A stretch of DNA of 34,773 bases from Candidatus Zixiibacteriota bacterium. GTDB taxonomy: Bacteria > Zixibacteria > MSB-5A5 > GN15 > PGXB01. Of the stretch, positions 3,030 to 15,527 are shown one piece after another (position 1 is the first letter of the stretch; every line of letters starts with the position of its first letter). The DNA lies in assembly GCA_020058225.1 (NCBI GenBank), contig JAGVEJ010000153.1, positions 1 to 34,773 on the forward strand, in the 5' to 3' direction. The position numbers were made by a program, and so were the translations under genes. The notes beneath the pieces are model-generated. The model saw only the letters and a list, made by a program, of their open reading frames with translations, did not search any database and was not told the DNA's origin.

Positions 3030-5258
3030 TCAGGCGCATCCAAAAAGTGGCGCCGGACCTCCCTTATAAAGGTAATTTATCAAGTAGGTTATATCTTGAA
3101 TATTAATTGTGCAGGAATTATTGGGATCGGCCAGGCCGGGAATAGGCGGCGGGGGTCCTGATTTATACAGATAATTTATAAGAAAGGTTATATCCTGAAT
3201 ATTTACCAAACCATTATTGTTGGCGTCACCGGGAACACCTGGGGCAGATTCAATCGACAGGTGATAATTCAAAGAGTCCTGATTATTGGTTAAATATTCG
3301 TTAGCTCTAATCATAAAATCAAATTCACCCGAGGCTGTCGGCGACCCTGAAATAATTCCAGTCATAGAATCGAGAACCAATCCCGGCGGAAATGTGCCGG
3401 AGATTACCGCAAATCTATTGGTTCCGGAACCGCCCCGGACAATAATGGAATCAGTATAGGGAGAATATTGTTGACCACTATCAAGCGGGAAAGGAATTAA
3501 ATAATATGTCCAGCTGAGTTTAAGACGGGATTTCAATATCCAATCCATCGGATCGGGAGTAATATCGGAAGGCGGGTTATCATTTTTGAAAATATAGGTC
3601 TGACGCTTAACATCATTAAATATAACAGTAGTGAATGTGTCAGTCGGCGAAAAGGTGAATTTCAAATCAAGCGGCATGGCAAATACGGGTGGGGTGGTGC
3701 TTTGAACCTGCTCAAGGTGCAGGAAAGTCCAATATTTGTTGTCTGAAGGATCGAGCTCGCTTCTGAATGAATAGTAATATTGGGGGTAATATGTTCCATA
3801 AAGCCATTCATCAAAAAAATAGTCCAGCTCTTCCCCTGAAATTGATTCGCAGAGGTTCTTAAATTGTTCGCTGTTTACATCATCATATTTGTATATGCTA
3901 TTATAATAGGTCTGTAGAATGGCAAAGAAGTCAGTATCACCTACAATATGGCGAAGCATGTGCAGAAGCCAAGCGGCCTTATCATACACTATTGAGCCGA
4001 AAATTATATTGACACTGGTGGTGTCATAAATATAAATGGTGCCACCACCGGTAAAAGCCATACCATTCATATATGAATGATAGCTGGCCGTTCCATTTTT
4101 TACTTCATAATAAAGCGCTTCGCTATAAGAAGCAAAACCCTCATTAAGCCAGATTTCGTGCCAGTTGTTGCAGGTGATCATATCCCCCCACCATTGATGC
4201 GATAGTTCATGCACCACAACCGGCTCATAAAAACCAAACCAATTTCCCGCCATGGAGGTCACAGTTTGATGTTCCATGCCTCCCCCCCATTCAAAATTGG
4301 CATGACCATATTTCTCATTCAAAAAGGGATACTCGCCAAAAATATCGGCAAAAACGCCAATGGCATACGGGGTAATATTCCAATGAGAGAGAGAATAGGC
4401 ATACTGGTCGGGATAAACATGATTGACAATCTCCATTGAATCGGTCGGAGTATAATGATACCAGTCTTTCCAAACTCTATAGTTGGACATGGCCACAGAG
4501 AAAAGATAGGTGGTAATTGGATATCTTACCTGATATTGAAAAGTCCAAGTGCCATCGCCATTGCGAACGGTATCAATAAATGTCCCATTGGAGGCACAGA
4601 AGAGGGCGGTATCGCAGGTAACGGCAATATCCAAGGAATCGGCCTTATCATCCGGTCTGTCCTTGCAGGGCCACCATGTTCTGGCCAAATATGGTTCGGA
4701 CAATGATGAAACTACCGGGACGCTGTTACGCCAATCGAAAGAGAATCCTTGAAATCCACCTGACGCGGGTGTTCCATGGTAGCGAATTATAAAAGAAAAT
4801 ATCGAGTCGGTATTGTAGGATTTATCCAATGCTACTGTTACCCTATAACCGGAGTGGGAATAACTGAGCAGAGAACCATTGTCAAGATAAACGGAATCAA
4901 TGGTCATGGTGGCATCGAAATCGACCTCGACCGTATCCAAACCATCAACCAAAGATTTGGCAGACATTTTTACATTGCCATAAAGAGTTGTGCTTGGAAC
5001 ATCAACTCTTAAATCAATATTGTAATAAATCACATCATATTCAATCTGGTTATAACCGATGGCAGGAGCCGTTTTATAGGCCGTAAGAAATTGGTTTAAT
5101 CTCTCGGCTTTGGCATTCCCCATTATGGCATGGATTTGCGATGGAGCTAAATCCTGGGGGGTATCCGGCAGAAGATTATCGCCAAAAATATTAGTGCATG
5201 CAAATAAAGTCAAGATAAAGATGGTTTTGATTAAAATTGAATAATGATGCCGTTTCAT
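3030..5258 (-). CDS. Secreted M1-family metallopeptidase with C-terminal dockerin repeats
   Basis: This is a zinc aminopeptidase of the M1 (gluzincin) family, predicted to be exported. Numbering is from the ATG at 5258. A signal peptide covers about residues 1-26. An N-terminal beta domain is followed by the exopeptidase-type motif GGGMEHQT (325-332), the zinc motif HELSH (350-354) and the third zinc ligand in NEGF (E373). The tyrosine motif YDKAAWLL that follows fits the M1 transition-state Tyr. Then come a putative Ig-like domain of the ISGTFPPGL...GIISGSP type and two dockerin-like calcium loops (GDANNNGLVNIQDITFLINY and a second copy) at the C-terminus. I chose ATG 5258 rather than the upstream in-frame TTG at 5273, because GAAAGAG is correctly spaced before the ATG. 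It has its own promoter upstream. The dockerin suggests docking to a cohesin; the protein encoded next door has a cohesin-like domain. Confidence 0.9.
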   Translation of the reverse strand: MKRHHYSILIKTIFILTLFACTNIFGDNLLPDTPQDLAPSQIHAIMGNAKAERLNQFLTAYKTAPAIGYNQIEYDVIYYNIDLRVDVPSTTLYGNVKMSAKSLVDGLDTVEVDFDATMTIDSVYLDNGSLLSYSHSGYRVTVALDKSYNTDSIFSFIIRYHGTPASGGFQGFSFDWRNSVPVVSSLSEPYLARTWWPCKDRPDDKADSLDIAVTCDTALFCASNGTFIDTVRNGDGTWTFQYQVRYPITTYLFSVAMSNYRVWKDWYHYTPTDSMEIVNHVYPDQYAYSLSHWNITPYAIGVFADIFGEYPFLNEKYGHANFEWGGGMEHQTVTSMAGNWFGFYEPVVVHELSHQWWGDMITCNNWHEIWLNEGFASYSEALYYEVKNGTASYHSYMNGMAFTGGGTIYIYDTTSVNIIFGSIVYDKAAWLLHMLRHIVGDTDFFAILQTYYNSIYKYDDVNSEQFKNLCESISGEELDYFFDEWLYGTYYPQYYYSFRSELDPSDNKYWTFLHLEQVQSTTPPVFAMPLDLKFTFSPTDTFTTVIFNDVKRQTYIFKNDNPPSDITPDPMDWILKSRLKLSWTYYLIPFPLDSGQQYSPYTDSIIVRGGSGTNRFAVISGTFPPGLVLDSMTGIISGSPTASGEFDFMIRANEYLTNNQDSLNYHLSIESAPGVPGDANNNGLVNIQDITFLINYLYKSGPPPPIPGLADPNNSCTINIQDITYLINYLYKGGPAPLFGCA

Positions 5259-5333
5259 AGCGTTCTCTTTCAAAAAATATGGTTTTTCAATCGGGCAAGT
5301 ATTGCCATTTACTTTCCTGTAGTACTATGTATA

Positions 5334-5507: not shown

Positions 5508-7793
5508 TCAATAAGGGTTGCCGCAAATAGGGTTGTGGTCGATATATAAGTAACTTATAAGCTCGGTAATATCGGCAACATTAACTCGGAAATTGCAGTC
5601 GCAATCGCCAACTTGCCGTTCCGGTTTTGGAGCGGGTCCGCTCTGATATAGATAACGAATCAAATATGTAATGTCTCTTATATTCAAAATACCGTTATAA
5701 TCGCAGTCCCCATAGAATTTCCATACTTCCAGTTTGAATTTTAACGGGAAGGGAGAATTAGATGCGGTTGGTGAAGTAATGGAGCATTGAGCATTATAGG
5801 CCCCCCAAGTAATACCGCCGGCAAACGGCATAAATTTTACCCTCCAAGGGTAAACATAATTATTTGATGAATCAACGTCATACGAAAGCCAGCTGATATC
5901 TTCATCAACCCCCCAAGACATACATCCGGGGTTGGCATTATTTACTTCAACATAAAATTCTTTCCCGGGTCGATTTTCCTGGGCAGTGAAATAAATGGTA
6001 TCAGTATAGGCAGAAATAAGTGGCGGCGTGGATGTGGGAAGAATGGTCAATTTAACCGGTAATCTGACAGGACTGTTAATGGCATTAATGGCGGTAACCA
6101 CAATCGTGTCGCGATAAGTTCCCGGCGCCAATCCTCTATAATCAAAATCTAACGTTACAATTGATGGCGTTGGTCCGGTTGTTTTATTGGGAATCAGCCA
6201 GCTTGAACTCCAGCTTAAATTAAAGGTCATTGGGTCTGTCCCATAATTAAAGATACTAAACTGCGAAAGGGAAGGTTGCGCGCCCGTGCCCTGAGCGCAT
6301 TCATATCTGCTTGCCGTAATCGAATCCTTATTTAAGGCAATTTCAGCCGGCTCATCAACATAGTGAAATTGGAATATCATAAAATGCGGCGAATTAATAG
6401 CCTCATCTGAATAAATCCAAACAGTATCAAAAATATTATCACCGGCATTTCCGGAAAGAGTCTTGAAACTTGCCGTAACGGATTGTGGGACCGCCCCTGA
6501 ATCAGGCGTCAAACCGGTGATCCTTGGAGAACTGTCGGTAACGCGATAATCCATCGCACCGCCGCCCTCATTAAAAATATAGAATGCCCTATCCGGTGGG
6601 TATGGATTGTTCATATCAACCACAACAAAAACCAGAGGCGAATCAACGGCAATTACGGGCAAACCGGAGGCGACCTGAAGTTTGACTACGGCTATTTGCG
6701 GATCATTGGTTGCATCGGGATCAGAAACTATAATTGTGTCGTAGTATATTCCATAACCCAAGCCGACAATATTGACGGAAAGAGTAATGTTACCGGAATC
6801 AATACCCGATATTGGATTGATTGTCAACCAACTGGATGAATTATCGGCGATCCATTGAAGTTCGCCCTGACCGGTATTGGTGATTATCAAGGTTTGATTG
6901 GGGGGATTAGCTGAATCGGCAATAGCATTGAAATTAAAATTAGTCTGAGATAAATGTATGGTTGGAGGAGGCTCAATGAGGCGCAATTTAACCGGTACTT
7001 TTATCGGATCATTGGTGGCATTGGTATCAGAAACAACAATGGTATCATAGTAATATCCAACCGGAAGTCCGGTGGTATTGGCAAAAATCTGAACATTAGA
7101 TGTTCCGACTCCAAATGACGGGGAGACATTTAGCCAAGTAGATTGTTTGGTTGCGGTCCATCTTAAGATCCCCTCGCCAATGTTGGTAATATTTAGAATT
7201 TGAGTAGAAGGGAATACGCCGCCGGCAACCGCCTCGAAATAAAGCGAATCAGGGTTGACCTCAATTACCGGCGGAAGGGTGGGATTTCCCACAACAATAA
7301 CACCCTTTTTAAATTCAGGAATGAAACCATCGGAGCTAGGCAAAACAAATAATAAATTTGAGGAGGGGGAGAAAAAGGCCGTATCAACAAAAATTTTCTG
7401 ATCCGGAATTCCGGCTGGAATGTTAAAATGGACTTTACAGAATAATCCTGAGCCGGAGGGAATATATGCCTCCACCATGACTATTGCCGCAATAACCGCC
7501 TGTCGATTGGCGTTATCAATGGTGACAATCTTATTGGCCAGATAGCTAATTCTTGAACCGACAAATGAAATTGAATCAATAGAGATGTCATCACTGGAAT
7601 AAATAATGGGGACTTCCACGGCGGCAAGTTCCTCATCATTGTAAAAATTGATATTCAGGACAGCCTTATTGCCCTGATTAACTTGAACAGAATCAATCCT
7701 GACAGTGTCAGGAATTCCCGGATCTTGAGCCTGAATATTCAGGACCCCAATGAATAAAACCAAAGCGATAGTGGTAAAAATCCTTTTACCCAT
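5508..7793 (-). CDS. Secreted cohesin-like / BACON-repeat protein with C-terminal dockerin
   Basis: A 761-residue exported protein without visible catalytic motifs. The signal peptide is residues 1-22 (ends NIQAQ). A cohesin-like beta domain spans about 27-160; it has the family's DTVRIDSVQV start and alternating hydrophobic strands, a pattern seen in type I cohesins. Five tandem Ig-like units follow at about 177-272, 275-374, 378-480, 481-586 and 592-690. The first two are clear BACON-type repeats (SSWLTINPISG, YYDTIIVSD). The C-terminus (692-761) has two dockerin-like loops (GDCDYNGILNIRDITYLI; GDCDCNFRVNVADITELI). The start is ATG 7793, with AGGAG eight bases before it. A strong promoter precedes it and a terminator follows, so it is monocistronic. 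Its role is probably surface adhesion or scaffolding. One chain carrying both a cohesin-like and a dockerin-like module could in principle self-assemble (inference). Confidence 0.85.
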   Translation of the reverse strand: MGKRIFTTIALVLFIGVLNIQAQDPGIPDTVRIDSVQVNQGNKAVLNINFYNDEELAAVEVPIIYSSDDISIDSISFVGSRISYLANKIVTIDNANRQAVIAAIVMVEAYIPSGSGLFCKVHFNIPAGIPDQKIFVDTAFFSPSSNLLFVLPSSDGFIPEFKKGVIVVGNPTLPPVIEVNPDSLYFEAVAGGVFPSTQILNITNIGEGILRWTATKQSTWLNVSPSFGVGTSNVQIFANTTGLPVGYYYDTIVVSDTNATNDPIKVPVKLRLIEPPPTIHLSQTNFNFNAIADSANPPNQTLIITNTGQGELQWIADNSSSWLTINPISGIDSGNITLSVNIVGLGYGIYYDTIIVSDPDATNDPQIAVVKLQVASGLPVIAVDSPLVFVVVDMNNPYPPDRAFYIFNEGGGAMDYRVTDSSPRITGLTPDSGAVPQSVTASFKTLSGNAGDNIFDTVWIYSDEAINSPHFMIFQFHYVDEPAEIALNKDSITASRYECAQGTGAQPSLSQFSIFNYGTDPMTFNLSWSSSWLIPNKTTGPTPSIVTLDFDYRGLAPGTYRDTIVVTAINAINSPVRLPVKLTILPTSTPPLISAYTDTIYFTAQENRPGKEFYVEVNNANPGCMSWGVDEDISWLSYDVDSSNNYVYPWRVKFMPFAGGITWGAYNAQCSITSPTASNSPFPLKFKLEVWKFYGDCDYNGILNIRDITYLIRYLYQSGPAPKPERQVGDCDCNFRVNVADITELISYLYIDHNPICGNPY

Positions 7794-7979: not shown

Positions 7980-10439
7980 TTATTTCACTTGAGGCATTTT
8001 TTTGGCAGGAGAGGCAGATTTCTTGTTTCGCGCCTTTTCGATTTCTTGGGCGAAGATTTTTTCAAGTGTGTAGCTTGATGGACTAAAATCGAGAAGTCCT
8101 CGCGCAAAGACCTCATCGACCGTATCAATGAAGATAAATTTTGTTTTTTTTATGATATCGGCAGGCAAATCTTTAAGATCCTTTTTATTCTCTTTGGGAA
8201 CAAATATCTTTGGAATACCGGCTCGGTAGGCGGCAGAAATTTTTTCCTTGATTCCCCCCACAGGCAGAACCTTGCCCCGCAGGGTTACTTCACCGGTCAT
8301 GGCAACATCATGACGAATGGGACGCTCGGCCATGACTGACGCAATCACCAGCGATACGGTGACACCGGCGGACGGTCCATCTTTGGGAATGGCTCCTTGA
8401 GGGAAATGAATATGGATATCAAAATTATCAAAATCATTGTGATCAATTCCAAGGACATCTGCTTTTGCTCGAACATAACTATGAGCGGCTTGAATTGATT
8501 CTTTCATAACCTCCCCGAGCGAGCCGGTGGTAATAACCTCACCATTTCCCTTCATTTTCAGACCTTCGATAATCATCAGGTCTCCCCCCAATCCGGTCCA
8601 GGCAAGTCCGATGGCGACACCGATTTCGGGGGCCGTATCCGGCTTTTCAGGAATATATTGGAGCGTGCCTAAAAAGCCTTCCACCGTTTTTTCGTTTACC
8701 ATCCAAATTTTGCTAACATGGGAAGCTTTTTCTTTGGCAACATGGCGGCAAATTCGTTCAATTTGTCTTCGAAAATTAAGTAATCCGGCTTCAAGAGTGT
8801 AACTTCGAATAATACGACGAAGTCCTTTATCGCTGAAAATGATATCTTTTCTTCTAAGGCCATGCTTTTTCAAGACATTGGGGATAATATGCTTGCGGGC
8901 AATATGTATTTTTTCCTTCTCAATATATCCGGACAATTCAATGACCTCAAAGCGATGGGTCATCATCTCAGGAATGCCATCAACCGATTTGACAGCACAA
9001 ATAAACATGGCCCGGCTAAGGTCTATGGATAAGCCTATATAATTATCAAGAAAGTGAGAATTAAGACGGGGATCAATGGCCTCAAGTAGCGACATAGGCA
9101 AGGCAGTGGTGGCATCTTCGGCAAAATATTCCAAGTCTTCAATGAATATTACCGGGTCGCATGTGCCGGCATCGCGAAGCGATCTGATAATAATTCCCGG
9201 AGTCGCACCGGGGAAATTGCGCGCTGATCCCTTGATATCAGCGATATCAGTCATGCCCCCAACTGATATACGGAAGAATTTCTTATGCATAGCCTTTGCT
9301 ATGGCGCGCGCCAGAGAAGCCTTTCCTGTACCGGGAACTCCGGCAAGACAAAGCACAGGTCCCTCGCTAATTCCGCCGGATAGCTGTCGAACGGCAATTC
9401 TTTCGAGCATTTGCTTTTTAATCTGTGGGGAGCCATAGTATTCGCAGGCAATATCTTCTTCAATTTGGTCGATGTTTAAATCCTCTTTGGTATGAATATT
9501 CCAAGGGATATTGAGGAGCCAATCGAGATATACCTTGGTGGCTCCATATTCGGCAGATGCGGTGGAAAGATGCCCCAAGCGGTCAACTTCTATCAGAGCC
9601 CGATCGCGGACATCGGCCGGAAGCAATTTGTTTTTCTTTATTTCATTTCTCAATTGTTGGGCGATTTTGTCTTCAATGAGTTCTTCGCCGAGCTGACGTC
9701 TGATTTCATATAATTGCTGTCGCAAGTACAGTTTTCGTTGTTCTTCAGCGCTGTTTTCTTCAACGCTTTTCCTTATTTCATAAGATATAGCCACCCGTTC
9801 TTGTTCAATTTTCAGGAACTCCAAGAGCCTTGCCAGTCGGGCATCAATCTGCATGGTTTCCAGAATCTCCTGTTTGGAATCAAGAGGAAGATGAAAGGCG
9901 GCGGCAATTTTATCTGCAAACTGACCGGGGGAACCAAGATTGAATTTCATCACATAGGCCAACTCATCGGAATAGGTAGGGTCAACATGGGTAATTTGTT
10001 CAATGATGCCGACAATAGCGTTGGAAAGGCGGTTGATCTCATTTTGCATACCTGTTTTTTCATCGGGGAACCCGACACGCGCTGATAAATAAGGGTTTTT
10101 GCCCTTAATCGATCTAATTGCAATCCGGCGAATCCCCTCTATAGAAATGATCTTGGAATCGCTTGGGCCATCCTTGGCTGATATGATTTTTGCCGCTGTA
10201 CCCACTTGGCAGAGGTCAAAATCATCAGAACCGGGGTCGCCACTAGGGGAAAAGCAGACCCCCACCAGCATATCCTTGCCAACATTTTCATTAACCAGCG
10301 ATAGATTTCCCGGCCTGCCTACTTGAAGCGAAATAGTCTCACCGGGGAAAAATATTACGGTTTTGGCCGGAATAATCGGCATTATCGACTCGCCATCAGA
10401 GGCCAGATATGGGATATGCGTACGGCTCTTTATAATCAT
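7980..10439 (-). CDS. lon: Lon-family AAA+ protease with degenerate ATPase site
   Basis: 819 residues with full Lon architecture: N-terminal substrate domain (about 18-210), coiled coil (210-270), AAA+ module (330-580) and S16 protease domain (600-790). The proteolytic Ser-Lys dyad is intact: S690 in PKDGPSAG and K731 in VLPVGGIKEK. The ATPase centre is not. Walker A is GVPGTGKAS, so the Ser/Thr after K373 is Ala374. Walker B is VIFIEDLEYF, so the usual Asp-Glu is E434-D435. The sensor-1 Asn is K484 (CAVKSVD), and the sensor-2 Arg is L554 (YTLEAGLLNF). The arginine finger R496 remains. Normal Lon uses ATP to unfold and degrade damaged proteins; this copy may bind nucleotide poorly or act independently of ATP. 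Alignment is by eye to E. coli Lon (K362, D423, E424, N473, R484, R542, S679, K722). The start ATG 10439 has AGGG at good spacing. It lies downstream of the helicase gene. Confidence 0.92.
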   Translation of the reverse strand: MIIKSRTHIPYLASDGESIMPIIPAKTVIFFPGETISLQVGRPGNLSLVNENVGKDMLVGVCFSPSGDPGSDDFDLCQVGTAAKIISAKDGPSDSKIISIEGIRRIAIRSIKGKNPYLSARVGFPDEKTGMQNEINRLSNAIVGIIEQITHVDPTYSDELAYVMKFNLGSPGQFADKIAAAFHLPLDSKQEILETMQIDARLARLLEFLKIEQERVAISYEIRKSVEENSAEEQRKLYLRQQLYEIRRQLGEELIEDKIAQQLRNEIKKNKLLPADVRDRALIEVDRLGHLSTASAEYGATKVYLDWLLNIPWNIHTKEDLNIDQIEEDIACEYYGSPQIKKQMLERIAVRQLSGGISEGPVLCLAGVPGTGKASLARAIAKAMHKKFFRISVGGMTDIADIKGSARNFPGATPGIIIRSLRDAGTCDPVIFIEDLEYFAEDATTALPMSLLEAIDPRLNSHFLDNYIGLSIDLSRAMFICAVKSVDGIPEMMTHRFEVIELSGYIEKEKIHIARKHIIPNVLKKHGLRRKDIIFSDKGLRRIIRSYTLEAGLLNFRRQIERICRHVAKEKASHVSKIWMVNEKTVEGFLGTLQYIPEKPDTAPEIGVAIGLAWTGLGGDLMIIEGLKMKGNGEVITTGSLGEVMKESIQAAHSYVRAKADVLGIDHNDFDNFDIHIHFPQGAIPKDGPSAGVTVSLVIASVMAERPIRHDVAMTGEVTLRGKVLPVGGIKEKISAAYRAGIPKIFVPKENKKDLKDLPADIIKKTKFIFIDTVDEVFARGLLDFSPSSYTLEKIFAQEIEKARNKKSASPAKKMPQVK

Positions 10440-10562: not shown

Positions 10563-13241
10563 TCAGCTTATTAATCGTGGAGCTAAACTTTCAGCCATAT
10601 GGCGCAACTCATAGTCAGAATGTGACTTAAGATTTTCGATGTTCAATTTTATTTTATTCGGCTCGAGGGCCAAGCGATAATACCCAAGCCTATTATTTTC
10701 AAAAATATCCCAGGGACAACCACCATCGTGATTCACCTCTTGTTTTAGACGATAAAGGTATCGAGCCTGATTGAAACCGGCTTCGATATCATCCTTATAA
10801 ATCCAGCCCTCTCCATTGGCCAAACGGGAATACGCCAGCTTGGTGAGATATTTAAATGATTTCCCTGTCAAATGAACGGGGAAGCCATCAATTTTAACAA
10901 GATATCGCTCCCCGACATAATTCCCATCAAGTTCAAGACTTGAAGGGCGATACCCAAGTCCGGCGCCAAGTGTAATCGGGTGATTATACCCGGTATTTAA
11001 TGCGGTTGTTCTGTTCATTTTTTCCTCCTTTTCGGGGGTTTCCAATAATTCATAAAGTTTTTTTAGTTTATTTTCAGATTTAATTAATTCGGCCAGTCTT
11101 CCCGGAGGTAATCCCCTGAAATCCCCAATTGTTTTAATTCCCTCTTTGCGCAAATTTGCAAAATCAAATCGAGACAAAATCTCGCGAGAGAAGGCATGAA
11201 GCTCTTTTATCTCCGATGAAATTCCAAACTGGACATTAAATGCGAAATCTTCAAGGCTCAGCGGCATGACTGATTTGTGGTCATTTGCTCTAATTATTTT
11301 TGCCAACGACATCATCAGCCATGCGGCAATCTCGCCCAAATTGATTATCTGTCCATGATGAAGCTGATATCTTTGTTCCAATTGCTCAACGGGTATTTCC
11401 TGCGCCCATTCGGTAAGGAGAAAAGTCGCCTTAAGGATGGCCACGGAACGGAAATCAAGCGGTTCAGAGCCGATTTTTTTGTTTAATAAGGGGGTAATGG
11501 TGCCAAGACAATTATCAAATTTTTGATAGAGTAGTCTTTCATAATAGTGGCTATGATATTCGGAGGACAATAGCCCGGAACGAGAGATGGTAAAATCATT
11601 CGCCGATAGGGCAAAAAACAACCATCCGGAAATATTATCGGGGAGCTGATTTTCCAGAGATTTTTTGTACCACTGATACCCGGCATAAGATAACCCGCAT
11701 TCGGCAACAGCAAAACCAACCGAAGTGGGGGAATAATCATCGCCAATCAGCCCGATATGCTTCAAATCGGAGAGAATATTCTCGGCTGTTATTCGCTCGA
11801 AAGGTTTTTTTTGATGGGCATAAAATGTTTGAGATAAGACTAACAATAAAGTGTCAAAGTCATCTACCAAGCGTGATGCAACAATATCTAAAATGATATC
11901 ATGAAGAGAAAAGCGGTCAAGGCAGGAAACGATTTTGGCATTATGGTGAGTTTCTATATAATTCGTCCAGAGGACCTCATGCTCAAATGATGATGAAGCC
12001 AGAATAATTGCCTTCCCGGGATTATTCGCGGAACCGAATCCAAACCGCCCGGCCCGACCGGTTATATTTTGAAATTCGGCCGATGTTATTGGAATCAATG
12101 CCGGTTTGCCGCCAAATATGCCGGAGTCATATTTCATGGTTTCGAGAAGTACTGTCTCGGCGGGAAGATTCACCCCCATTGCCAAGGTTGTTGTAGAAAA
12201 TAGAATTCTAATCTCGCCGTTGATATACCCCTGCTCTACGGCCTGACGCTGCGATGGAGTGAGGTCGGCATTATGGAAAGCGATGCCATGCGAGAGAACC
12301 TGACGAAGCGAGCGAATCAGAAAGCTTGGTTCTTCCTCATCGAGTTGTGTTAGAATTGACTTGGCTTCGCCCCAGTCAACCGATGCGGCCAATTTAAAGG
12401 CGGCGTTAATGGTATCGCGTTTGGATTTAAGAAAAATCAGTTTCTGGCTTCGGTCGCTTCTTAGAAAATTGATAAGGCTTTCAGTTATGCTCTCAGGATT
12501 ACTTTCTATATCAAATTTTTCACTCCCTTCAATTCCATTATTAAAACTGCGGTAATGGAAATGTCCATCCGAGGCCACACCCTGAAGAAGATCCACCGGT
12601 CGGGCAGTTTCTTTTATTATCCGACAATTAAGCCATCGAGCTAATTCTTCTTCATCATCAAGCACCGCTGATAAGGCAATAATTTTGGGCTTATAGCCGG
12701 AGGTTATAATTTTTGTTAAGGCCATCTCCAATTCAGGTCCTCGCTCGGCATCGCCAAGCAGTTGCAATTCATCAATTATTATCAGTCCAAGTTGTTGCAG
12801 AATATCGATATTGGCAGTCAGAAGACGATTGAACTTTTCATAAATGGCGACGGCGAAATCAAAATCGCCCATCTCAAAGAGGTAATCATTATCGGGATGA
12901 TCCCGTGTAACAATAATAGTCTTTATTCCAAGAGGCTGATAGCAAGAGTGAAAGAAATTATATTTTTCTTCGGCAATTGATTTGAGAGGAATCAGCATTA
13001 CCGCTTTTTTCCGTTTTAATAAGGCAGATATGGCGGCCATCTCGCCGCAAAATGATTTCCCCGATGAGGTCGGCGCGGAAATAAGCAAATTATTGGCACA
13101 GCCGTTATCAATCTGATAATTAATCAGTCCGGCATGGATTGCTTTTTCCTGCAATGGAAGAAGATAATCTCCCTGCCGATTACTCCAAGCATTGATAATC
13201 AATTCCGGCATTTCATATTTGGCCAAGTCCTTTAATCGCAT
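10563..13241 (-). CDS. Ski2/Hel308-like superfamily 2 helicase with C-terminal winged helix
   Basis: An 892-residue ATP-dependent nucleic-acid helicase. Visible motifs: Q31 (LPLQEKAI), Walker A APTSSGKS (56-63), motif II DELQ (157-160), motif III SAV (191-193), motif V STTTLAMGVNLP (349-360) and motif VI QNITGRAGRFGFG (391-403). Motif VI and the following winged-helix region resemble archaeal Hel308/HelQ and Ski2, enzymes that remodel stalled replication forks or unwind RNA. A helix-hairpin-helix-like stretch follows (GIKTIGDFRGLPPGRLAELI). Past the usual family end, about 785-865 reads like an OmpR-type winged helix (LTGKSFKYLTKLAY, then ARYLYRLKQEV, then LGYYRLAL). The start ATG 13241 has GGAGG six bases before it. 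A MITE-like element ends 27 bases upstream. The motif II sequence DELQ is unusual beside the more common DEVH/DEIH. The precise substrate cannot be read from sequence. Confidence 0.85.
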   Translation of the reverse strand: MRLKDLAKYEMPELIINAWSNRQGDYLLPLQEKAIHAGLINYQIDNGCANNLLISAPTSSGKSFCGEMAAISALLKRKKAVMLIPLKSIAEEKYNFFHSCYQPLGIKTIIVTRDHPDNDYLFEMGDFDFAVAIYEKFNRLLTANIDILQQLGLIIIDELQLLGDAERGPELEMALTKIITSGYKPKIIALSAVLDDEEELARWLNCRIIKETARPVDLLQGVASDGHFHYRSFNNGIEGSEKFDIESNPESITESLINFLRSDRSQKLIFLKSKRDTINAAFKLAASVDWGEAKSILTQLDEEEPSFLIRSLRQVLSHGIAFHNADLTPSQRQAVEQGYINGEIRILFSTTTLAMGVNLPAETVLLETMKYDSGIFGGKPALIPITSAEFQNITGRAGRFGFGSANNPGKAIILASSSFEHEVLWTNYIETHHNAKIVSCLDRFSLHDIILDIVASRLVDDFDTLLLVLSQTFYAHQKKPFERITAENILSDLKHIGLIGDDYSPTSVGFAVAECGLSYAGYQWYKKSLENQLPDNISGWLFFALSANDFTISRSGLLSSEYHSHYYERLLYQKFDNCLGTITPLLNKKIGSEPLDFRSVAILKATFLLTEWAQEIPVEQLEQRYQLHHGQIINLGEIAAWLMMSLAKIIRANDHKSVMPLSLEDFAFNVQFGISSEIKELHAFSREILSRFDFANLRKEGIKTIGDFRGLPPGRLAELIKSENKLKKLYELLETPEKEEKMNRTTALNTGYNHPITLGAGLGYRPSSLELDGNYVGERYLVKIDGFPVHLTGKSFKYLTKLAYSRLANGEGWIYKDDIEAGFNQARYLYRLKQEVNHDGGCPWDIFENNRLGYYRLALEPNKIKLNIENLKSHSDYELRHMAESLAPRLIS

Positions 13242-13931: not shown

Positions 13932-15527
13932 CTATTTCAGTATTACCATCTTCTTGGATTCGGTGAATTCTCCAGTTTTCAAATGATAAAGATAGATACC
14001 CGATGACAATTCGTGGCCAGCATCATCCTTGCCATCCCAAAGAACGGAGGTAAAACCAATGTCATTACCGGAGAAAGAGCGAACATTTTGGCCGGTTATA
14101 TTGAAAATTTCCAATTGCCATTCCCATTGATATGGTAATTCAAAGGATATTGCGGTGGATGAATTAAAGGGGTTGGGGTGGTTTTGATGGAGCAAAAATT
14201 CTCTCGCCGGAGTTACATCATCAATTTCGAAAATGACTTTTTCCCCATAGTTTCCAGTGGCTTCGTAATCGATTAATTCCAGTGGAGATTCACTATATAT
14301 TATTTCCAGCAATCCGGTTCCGGAGGTGTCAAGATAAAAGGGAGACATAATCCATGGGGTATGATTATGCCGAAAGAGCCATCCCCCCTTTATATTTTTT
14401 ATGTTTTCTGCTTTGGAGAATAAGTCCCTGAATTTTAAGAAAACAAATCCGACCCGCCCATCGGCCCCATAATTTATTATAACTGATGTATCAGTCCTGA
14501 GAATTTTTATTTTTTCATATAAAGTGATATTTGATGTCGGTCGGCCATACATTTTATTAAGCATCCAACGATAATCCTCAATGGTTAATGGAATGCTATC
14601 GCCATTCAAATCGGTTGCCGCTATCTGGCTATCAACATTGATAAGAAATGCTGATGTGCCCTCGCTAAGGCATCGAAAAAAGAGCATTACATCATCAATT
14701 TCATTGGCATATCCATTTAAATCCACATCTCCAATATCAGAAGTATCAGGACACTCGCCGGTATCAATGGCGCTATTATAGTAATTAATAAAGCGATTTG
14801 GCGTCATTCTTTCAGCCGATTGACATTCATTTGGAGAGCCAGATATCGTCGGGAAAGCGCTGTTCCTATTGGTAATCTCTTTGCCATTATGGTCATATAC
14901 ACAAGAAGAAATCGCCATTTTTATATCCCAACTTTGGCCTCTATAGCTCATCGCAATGCAATTATCACCGCAATCCTTCCAGTAAAATCTGATTGGCATT
15001 GGCTGACATTCAAAGCTAATCCAATTGGTGTGCGCGAAATAGAAATCCATTGTAAATAAGACAATGTAATCATCGCTTGTATATCTCTTTGGATTATGCA
15101 TTCCATTATTTATATCTGCCATGCCGACAAATCGGATTAGAGACGTTGAACCTAAATATAGAGTATCCTTTCCATATCCAAATCGATATGTAAAATATTC
15201 CCATTCATAATTTCCTGGTATGTCATATAATTTCCCAGGATCTGCCCCCATGAAAGTTAAAGCGGTCTTATCATAAGCTATTAGAAAATCGAAACCTCTG
15301 ATTTCTTCAGAGCCTTGAATTTTTGTAACAGGAATATATACATGATGTCCCAATTGGGCATTTTCCACTTTCCCTATTTCAATGCCAAATGGGATTTCCC
15401 ATGAATCAGGGGGGTGGTATAAATTCTCATTGTCTGCGCTAAATAAGAGAGTACCGTTAATGATAGTGACGCAGAAAATTAAAGCCCAAAAGTGAAATTG
15501 GCCACTATATTTATTCAATAATCCCAT
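13932..15527 (-). CDS. Secreted cohesin-like protein with EF-hand pair and C-terminal sorting-type domain
   Basis: A 531-residue exported protein. A hydrophobic signal segment covers about residues 10-30. A cohesin-like beta domain follows at about 45-210 (HHVYIPVTKIQGSEEIRGFD...YDKTALTF). Next come two calcium-loop elements resembling a divergent dockerin: DIGDVDLNGYANEIDD (264-279) and TDLNGDSIPLTIEDYR (305-320). The C-terminal ~90 residues begin NHPNPFNSSTAISFELP (449-465) and end GIYLYHLKTGEFTESKKMVI plus LK. That is the FlgD-like / type IX-style sorting pattern of FCB-group bacteria, which is recognised during outer-membrane export. No catalytic motif is seen. The start ATG 15527 has only a distant SD, but a consensus promoter precedes it. 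A surface-anchored structural or binding role is likely. Confidence 0.8.
   Translation of the reverse strand: MGLLNKYSGQFHFWALIFCVTIINGTLLFSADNENLYHPPDSWEIPFGIEIGKVENAQLGHHVYIPVTKIQGSEEIRGFDFLIAYDKTALTFMGADPGKLYDIPGNYEWEYFTYRFGYGKDTLYLGSTSLIRFVGMADINNGMHNPKRYTSDDYIVLFTMDFYFAHTNWISFECQPMPIRFYWKDCGDNCIAMSYRGQSWDIKMAISSCVYDHNGKEITNRNSAFPTISGSPNECQSAERMTPNRFINYYNSAIDTGECPDTSDIGDVDLNGYANEIDDVMLFFRCLSEGTSAFLINVDSQIAATDLNGDSIPLTIEDYRWMLNKMYGRPTSNITLYEKIKILRTDTSVIINYGADGRVGFVFLKFRDLFSKAENIKNIKGGWLFRHNHTPWIMSPFYLDTSGTGLLEIIYSESPLELIDYEATGNYGEKVIFEIDDVTPAREFLLHQNHPNPFNSSTAISFELPYQWEWQLEIFNITGQNVRSFSGNDIGFTSVLWDGKDDAGHELSSGIYLYHLKTGEFTESKKMVILK

Follow-up and report, generated by a model that had tools for sequence, protein, structure and literature searches.

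The genome of a Candidatus Zixiibacteriota bacterium (93.8% complete) encodes a LonA-type protease, P0001, which belongs to a clade whose AAA+ ring has almost certainly lost ATP hydrolysis. We regard P0001 as probably a LonA-derived peptidase for unfolded chains, independent of ATP hydrolysis, with its Ser-Lys site kept. The gene (positions 7980-10439, minus strand, 819 aa) lies in a window of 34,773 nucleotides, the whole stretch of DNA that was analyzed, and all coordinates within the gene given below refer to the minus strand. The P0001 lineage is most likely an ancient LonA paralogue, passed down vertically within the Zixiibacteriota.

Domain Architecture and Lon Class

The reading frame of P0001 is clean over its 819 codons and the N-terminal region is present, as the earlier note had stated. 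The chain comprises a LON substrate-binding domain (residues 20-210, positions 9810-10382; PF02190, 109 bits), an AAA+ alpha/beta core (residues 321-500, positions 8940-9479), which is intact in fold, degenerate in its active site and relaxed in constraint approximately 3-fold, an AAA+ lid (residues 501-590, positions 8670-8939; PF22667) and a Lon_C (S16) protease domain (residues 600-782, positions 8094-8642; PF05362, 270 bits). The Pfam matches span residues 20-210 (LON_substr_bdg), 363-502 (AAA, PF00004), 524-574 (Lon_lid) and 581-782 (Lon_C), and the match to the NCBIfam model TIGR00763 'lon' reaches 680.6 bits (cut-off 608). The AlphaFold2 model of the protein (mean pLDDT 84) displays a normal AAA+ fold and corresponds to E. 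coli LonA (6u5z) with a target-normalized TM-score of 0.91 over 530 columns.

The proteolytic dyad had been described earlier as intact and composed of Ser690 and Lys731. The serine (positions 8370-8372) is invariant in 94/94 members of the clade, but the catalytic lysine is Lys733 (positions 8241-8243), the second Lys of a KEK motif of which K731 is the first. Lys733 aligns with K722 of E. coli LonA and does not vary within the clade (93/93 members). In P0001 the PKDGPSAG loop also retains its Asp (D687). LonA proteases are recognized by a Pro preceding the catalytic Ser and by a Ser-Lys spacing of 42 residues (PMC9569914), and both features are found in all 93 of the 93 clade members. P0001 also carries the LON domain, the AAA+ module and the S16 protease in one chain. 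Residues 730-782 align without gaps with residues 719-771 of Y. pestis/E. coli-type LonA, and in the alignment to LonA the insertion that follows the catalytic Lys in LonC is absent. Based on the N-domain, the Pro-Ser signature, the Ser-Lys spacing, the TIGR00763 match and the lack of that insertion, we infer from the sequence that P0001 is a LonA and not a LonC.

Compared with LonA proteins in general (TIGR00763; E. coli, Y. pestis, Meiothermus LonA and human LONP1), P0001 has the same order of N-domain, coil, AAA+, lid and S16 domains, the same overall fold, Pro-Ser signature and spacing, and 34-40% sequence identity. It differs from them in having a degenerate ATPase site (Walker A Thr, Walker B Asp-Glu, sensor-1 and sensor-2) and an extra C-terminal helix with a basic tail. 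The clade lacks the canonical LonA set of Walker A and B motifs, sensors and arginine finger, the finger being kept in most members, and P0001 should therefore be called a degenerate-ATPase LonA paralogue and not an ordinary LonA.

The ATPase Site and its Loss Across Families

Residues of the ATPase site were assigned by alignment with a LonA of solved structure and with 87 canonical Lons. In the Walker A-like motif GVPGTGKAS (residues 367-375, positions 9315-9341) Lys373 is kept and the Thr is replaced by Ala374, while in the Walker B-like motif VIFIED (residues 430-435, positions 9135-9152) Asp-Glu has become Glu434-Asp435. The sensor-1 Asn is replaced by Lys484 (positions 8988-8990) and the sensor-2 Arg by Leu554 (positions 8778-8780); the arginine finger Arg496 (positions 8952-8954) is kept. 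The claim that every key ATPase residue is changed thus holds for A374, E434-D435, K484 and L554, but not for Lys373 and Arg496. In the structural model the P-loop sits between strand 362-366 and helix 373-383, and the Walker B strand (430-434) and the sensor-1 strand (478-483) are the expected elements. As the altered residues lie at these elements, no canonical motif is hidden nearby. The earlier note had allowed that a structure-based alignment might reveal canonical residues close by, and none was found in the AlphaFold2 model or in its match to 6u5z. The Asp-to-Glu and Glu-to-Asp swaps are conservative, and a trace of ATP hydrolysis might persist.

Seven ATPase residues (P-loop Lys, Thr/Ser, Asp, Glu, sensor-1 Asn, Arg finger and sensor-2 Arg) were scored across the Lon proteins. 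All seven are present in 87/87 canonical Lons and in 0/95 clade members; the Walker B Asp-Glu is likewise kept in 0/95. Clade proteins in which all seven sites were scored have lost 3-6 of the 7. The Walker A/B states vary by family (e.g., GKA/ED, GKT/EQ, GKT/DD, GKS/DD, GKT/EG). GKA occurs with Glu-Asp in families f1-f5, GKT or GKS with Asp-Asp in f9-f10, GKT with Glu-Gln, -Pro, -Asp or -Gly in f13, GKT with Glu-Gly, -Glu or -Asp in f18-f19, and GKT or GKS with Glu-Gly, -Arg or -Glu in f12. At the catalytic Glu site Gly, Gln, Pro or Asn are found in families other than that of the window, sensor-1 is Ser in f2 and Thr, Glu, Asp or Leu in other families, and the arginine finger is lost in f7, f8, f12 and f13. 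As judged from the sequences, this is a pattern of repeated erosion after an initial loss and not of one mutation inherited unchanged.

In general, the pore-loop aromatic, the arginine finger and the P-loop Gly-x-Gly-Lys are mostly kept in the degenerate clade. The P-loop Lys (K373) is present in 91/93 members, which argues for retained binding of nucleotide or phosphate. One sequence, L105 (G078), is also devoid of the P-loop Lys (GTGIA); it comes from a single-contig assembly of lower completeness, and a read error is possible. The N-domain is missing from L212, L213, L218, L220 and L239 (f12) and from L128 and L129 (f13). These copies are open frames of approximately 570-620 aa starting at about residue 208-270, and G102 carries two of them.

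Host Copies, Distribution and Phylogeny

P0001 had been suggested to be a second, specialized Lon beside a normal copy, and the presence of a canonical lon in the same genome had been named as a check. Two more full-length LonA proteins with intact ATPase motifs are indeed encoded there, on contigs C78 (37% identity to P0001) and C216 (34%). A specialized protein beside normal ones is thus what was found, but it is the third Lon, and two are canonical. Of 132 genomes from the phylum, at least 102 have the paralogue as the best match at E <= 1e-176, and so do 61 of 78 near-complete ones. Further copies beyond the 102 were found in a follow-up, in family f12 and in genome G126, while all examined Lons of families f6 and f14-f17 are canonical.

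In trees of 60-96 Lons, rooted at the midpoint only, the degenerate Lons are split off from the other Lons by a single branch (SH-aLRT 100). The tree placement proposed for P0001 in the earlier note puts it inside this clade with support of 100. A tree of the protease domain only, with all altered AAA+ columns left out, recovered the same split with support of 99, ruling out convergent clustering through those columns. Inside the clade the families cluster together, matching the expectation for vertical descent. Among 20 of the closest Lons from outside the phylum none has a degenerate ATPase, the ATPase residues being intact in 20/20. Several ATP-competent LonA proteins are placed near the base of the clade, both from the phylum (L137 on C33 of G067 and L138 on C88 of G064) and from outside it (L244 of G317 and L246 of G217), and these may resemble the parent enzyme of the degenerate clade.

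Divergence and Selection

When degenerate and canonical Lons were compared over matched pairs of genomes, the AAA+ core of the degenerate protein had diverged 3.3 times as much as that of the type-1 reference and 2.6 times as much as that of the type-2 reference, and the corresponding ratios for the protease domain were 0.89 and 0.72. Among positions fixed in canonical Lons, the clade majority has abandoned 25/60 in the AAA+ core vs. 0/38 of those in the protease domain (Fisher p = 5e-7), which bears out the earlier view that chance does not explain the loss. Among near relatives the overall dN/dS of the degenerate Lon is 0.02-0.09, indicating that the gene is functional. For the genome pair G105/G106, dN/dS in the AAA+ core is 0.079 for the degenerate Lon vs. 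0.017 for the canonical one, and in the protease domain 0.030 vs. 0.051; dS is high in many pairs and all these ratios are approximate. The two intact LonA genes, the phylum-wide paralogous clade and the strong purifying selection together support a specialized degenerate Lon.

C-terminal Tail and Genomic Neighborhood

The C-terminal extension of P0001 (residues 783-819, positions 7983-8093) consists of a helix (residues 792-808) and a Lys/Arg-rich tail. Beyond residue 782, the clade has a median length of 44.5 residues and a median net charge of +11, compared with 21 and +3 in canonical Lons; the charge of +4 in P0001 is at the weak end of the clade range. The clade tail is a candidate tether that could bind nucleic acid or polyphosphate.

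Upstream of P0001 there is a gene for a Hel308-like SF2 helicase (positions 10563-13241, minus strand), a neighbor in families f1-f5, f9 and f10. This bacterial protein scores well below the NCBIfam Hel308 cut-offs and has DELQ in place of DExH. Downstream lies a gene for a dockerin protein with an apparent signal peptide and BACON-like repeats (positions 5508-7793, minus strand). The helicase upstream and the BACON/dockerin, M1 peptidase and MiaB genes downstream are on the same strand and recur across families. However, the canonical lon loci of the same genomes are similarly conserved, with a GTPase-like gene upstream and an NAD(P)HX epimerase-like gene downstream. Since canonical loci also keep their neighbors, synteny is no evidence of coupling, and an operon-based function was rejected and no functional link is claimed. 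Three proteins encoded in the window, a dockerin-bearing M1 peptidase (3030-5273), the dockerin/BACON protein (5508-7793) and a cohesin-like protein bearing a type IX sorting tail (13932-15527), form a possible cohesin-dockerin surface system.

Proposed Mechanism and Alternative Readings

Judging by its fold, P0001 would form a Lon-type hexamer, in which nucleotide at the P-loop probably still serves as a structural cofactor, as it does in LonC. Without ATP hydrolysis the ring would neither pull nor unfold substrates. Unfolded proteins and peptides, chosen by the N-domain in those proteins that have one, would instead diffuse through the pore and be cleaved at constitutively assembled Ser690-Lys733 sites, and native proteins would be unfolded by the cell's two canonical LonA enzymes. 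The peptidase activity is predicted because the protease domain is more strictly conserved than in canonical Lons and because LonC offers a precedent. The LonC hexamer of Meiothermus takes up six ATPgammaS but shows no ATPase activity, and without ATP it degrades unfolded proteins while sparing folded ones (PMC3391209). In canonical bacterial Lon, substrate engagement by the ATPase ring switches the protease ring on (PMC8163871). With such engagement-triggered sites and with D687 kept, a LonA ring without ATP hydrolysis might be inactive unless another trigger exists, and the sites of the dead ring might be kept active by assembling constitutively, by a ligand switch or by mixed rings.

The last two options lead to a reading confined to the order of the window, in which the ATP site has been rebuilt as a Mg2+-independent ligand switch that gates the peptidase, or in which the protein is a regulatory subunit of a mixed ring. 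We consider it rather doubtful, though it draws on the nearly invariant GKA, Glu-Asp and Arg finger and on the Lys or Arg at sensor-1 in this order (A374 in 59/59, E434 and D435 each in 58/59, R496 in 60/61, sensor-1 Lys/Arg in 53/61). Altered residues so close to fixation indicate that the pocket is under some selection there and suggest that it has been repurposed and not merely discarded. If either version is true, this Lon would be controlled by binding of a ligand or partner and not driven by hydrolysis. As an account of the clade, the switch is unlikely. It assumes a Mg2+-free pocket for a nucleotide or phosphate ligand, where the sensor-1 Lys/Arg and the P-loop Lys replace the metal, and it is favored by the retention of K373 and, in the window's order, by the near-invariant residues named above and R407, but the sensor-1 residues of f2 and other families show that no single remodeled pocket exists across the clade. 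We also find it improbable that the degenerate subunit joins canonical LonA in mixed hexamers, contributing its arginine finger and protease sites and tuning the motor. Arg496, which acts on the ATP of the neighboring subunit, is nearly always kept in the window's order, and the genomes that were inspected for Lon copies do contain canonical LonA. However, P0001 is only 34-37% identical to the co-resident LonA proteins, four families have lost the finger, and the protease is conserved beyond the need of a purely regulatory part.

A Lon that is still ATP-dependent, hydrolyzing slowly and tolerating the swapped Walker B acids and the other changes, is very unlikely. The AAA+ fold is kept, most members retain Gly-x-Gly-Lys, the arginine finger and the pore-loop aromatic, and the core is under purifying selection, but the Walker A Thr, both Walker B acids, sensor-1 and sensor-2 are lost together, at least three of the seven residues are gone from each fully scored protein, and other families have non-acidic residues at the catalytic Glu. 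A decaying pseudogene or an assembly artefact can be dismissed, as, a few relatives with broken or shortened frames aside (e.g., G051 and G009), the gene is phylum-wide, intact in tens of genomes and constrained at the dN/dS given above.

Relation to Known Systems and Significance

P0001, in our view a probable ATP-independent peptidase, shares with LonC (MtaLonC, TTC1975; MEROPS S16.007) a degenerate AAA+ ring combined with an intact Ser-Lys protease and the presence of two normal LonA genes alongside, and the degenerate Lons of f12 and some of f13 have further converged on LonC in being devoid of the N-domain. LonC, however, is LonB-related and has no LonA-like N-domain, whereas P0001 is a LonA with one. 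In addition, the protease domain of LonC contains two insertions, in the alpha3-beta9 loop and in helix alpha5 (PMC3391209), and P0001 has none after the catalytic Lys. Being a LonA with an N-domain and without the LonC insertion, P0001 points to a loss of ATPase function independent of that in LonC. The comparison with LonC drawn in the earlier note is therefore apt as a functional analogy, but membership in LonC is contradicted by the N-domain, the Pro-Ser signature, the spacing and the TIGR00763 match.

AAA+ proteins with inactive ATP sites, such as Pex1/Pex6 D1, ORC and dynein AAA2, use these sites for structure or for nucleotide binding without hydrolysis, and usually one non-hydrolyzing site is complexed with active ones. 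P0001 resembles them in retaining an AAA+ module without hydrolysis. In the searchable literature, coverage of which is incomplete, we found no account of a LonA clade with a degenerate ATPase or of a Zixibacteria Lon.

The clade would represent a second origin of a Lon with a dead motor, this time within LonA, where the N-domain for substrate recognition has been retained. Many families show the loss, in different combinations, and intact LonA proteins of the same genomes serve as controls. This natural experiment may reveal which parts of an AAA+ protease are needed for cutting and which for pulling, and whether the protease ring of a LonA needs ATP to be active. Among the Zixiibacteriota themselves, most sampled genomes of this little-studied phylum have such an extra Lon, predicted to be a protein shredder that runs without fuel.
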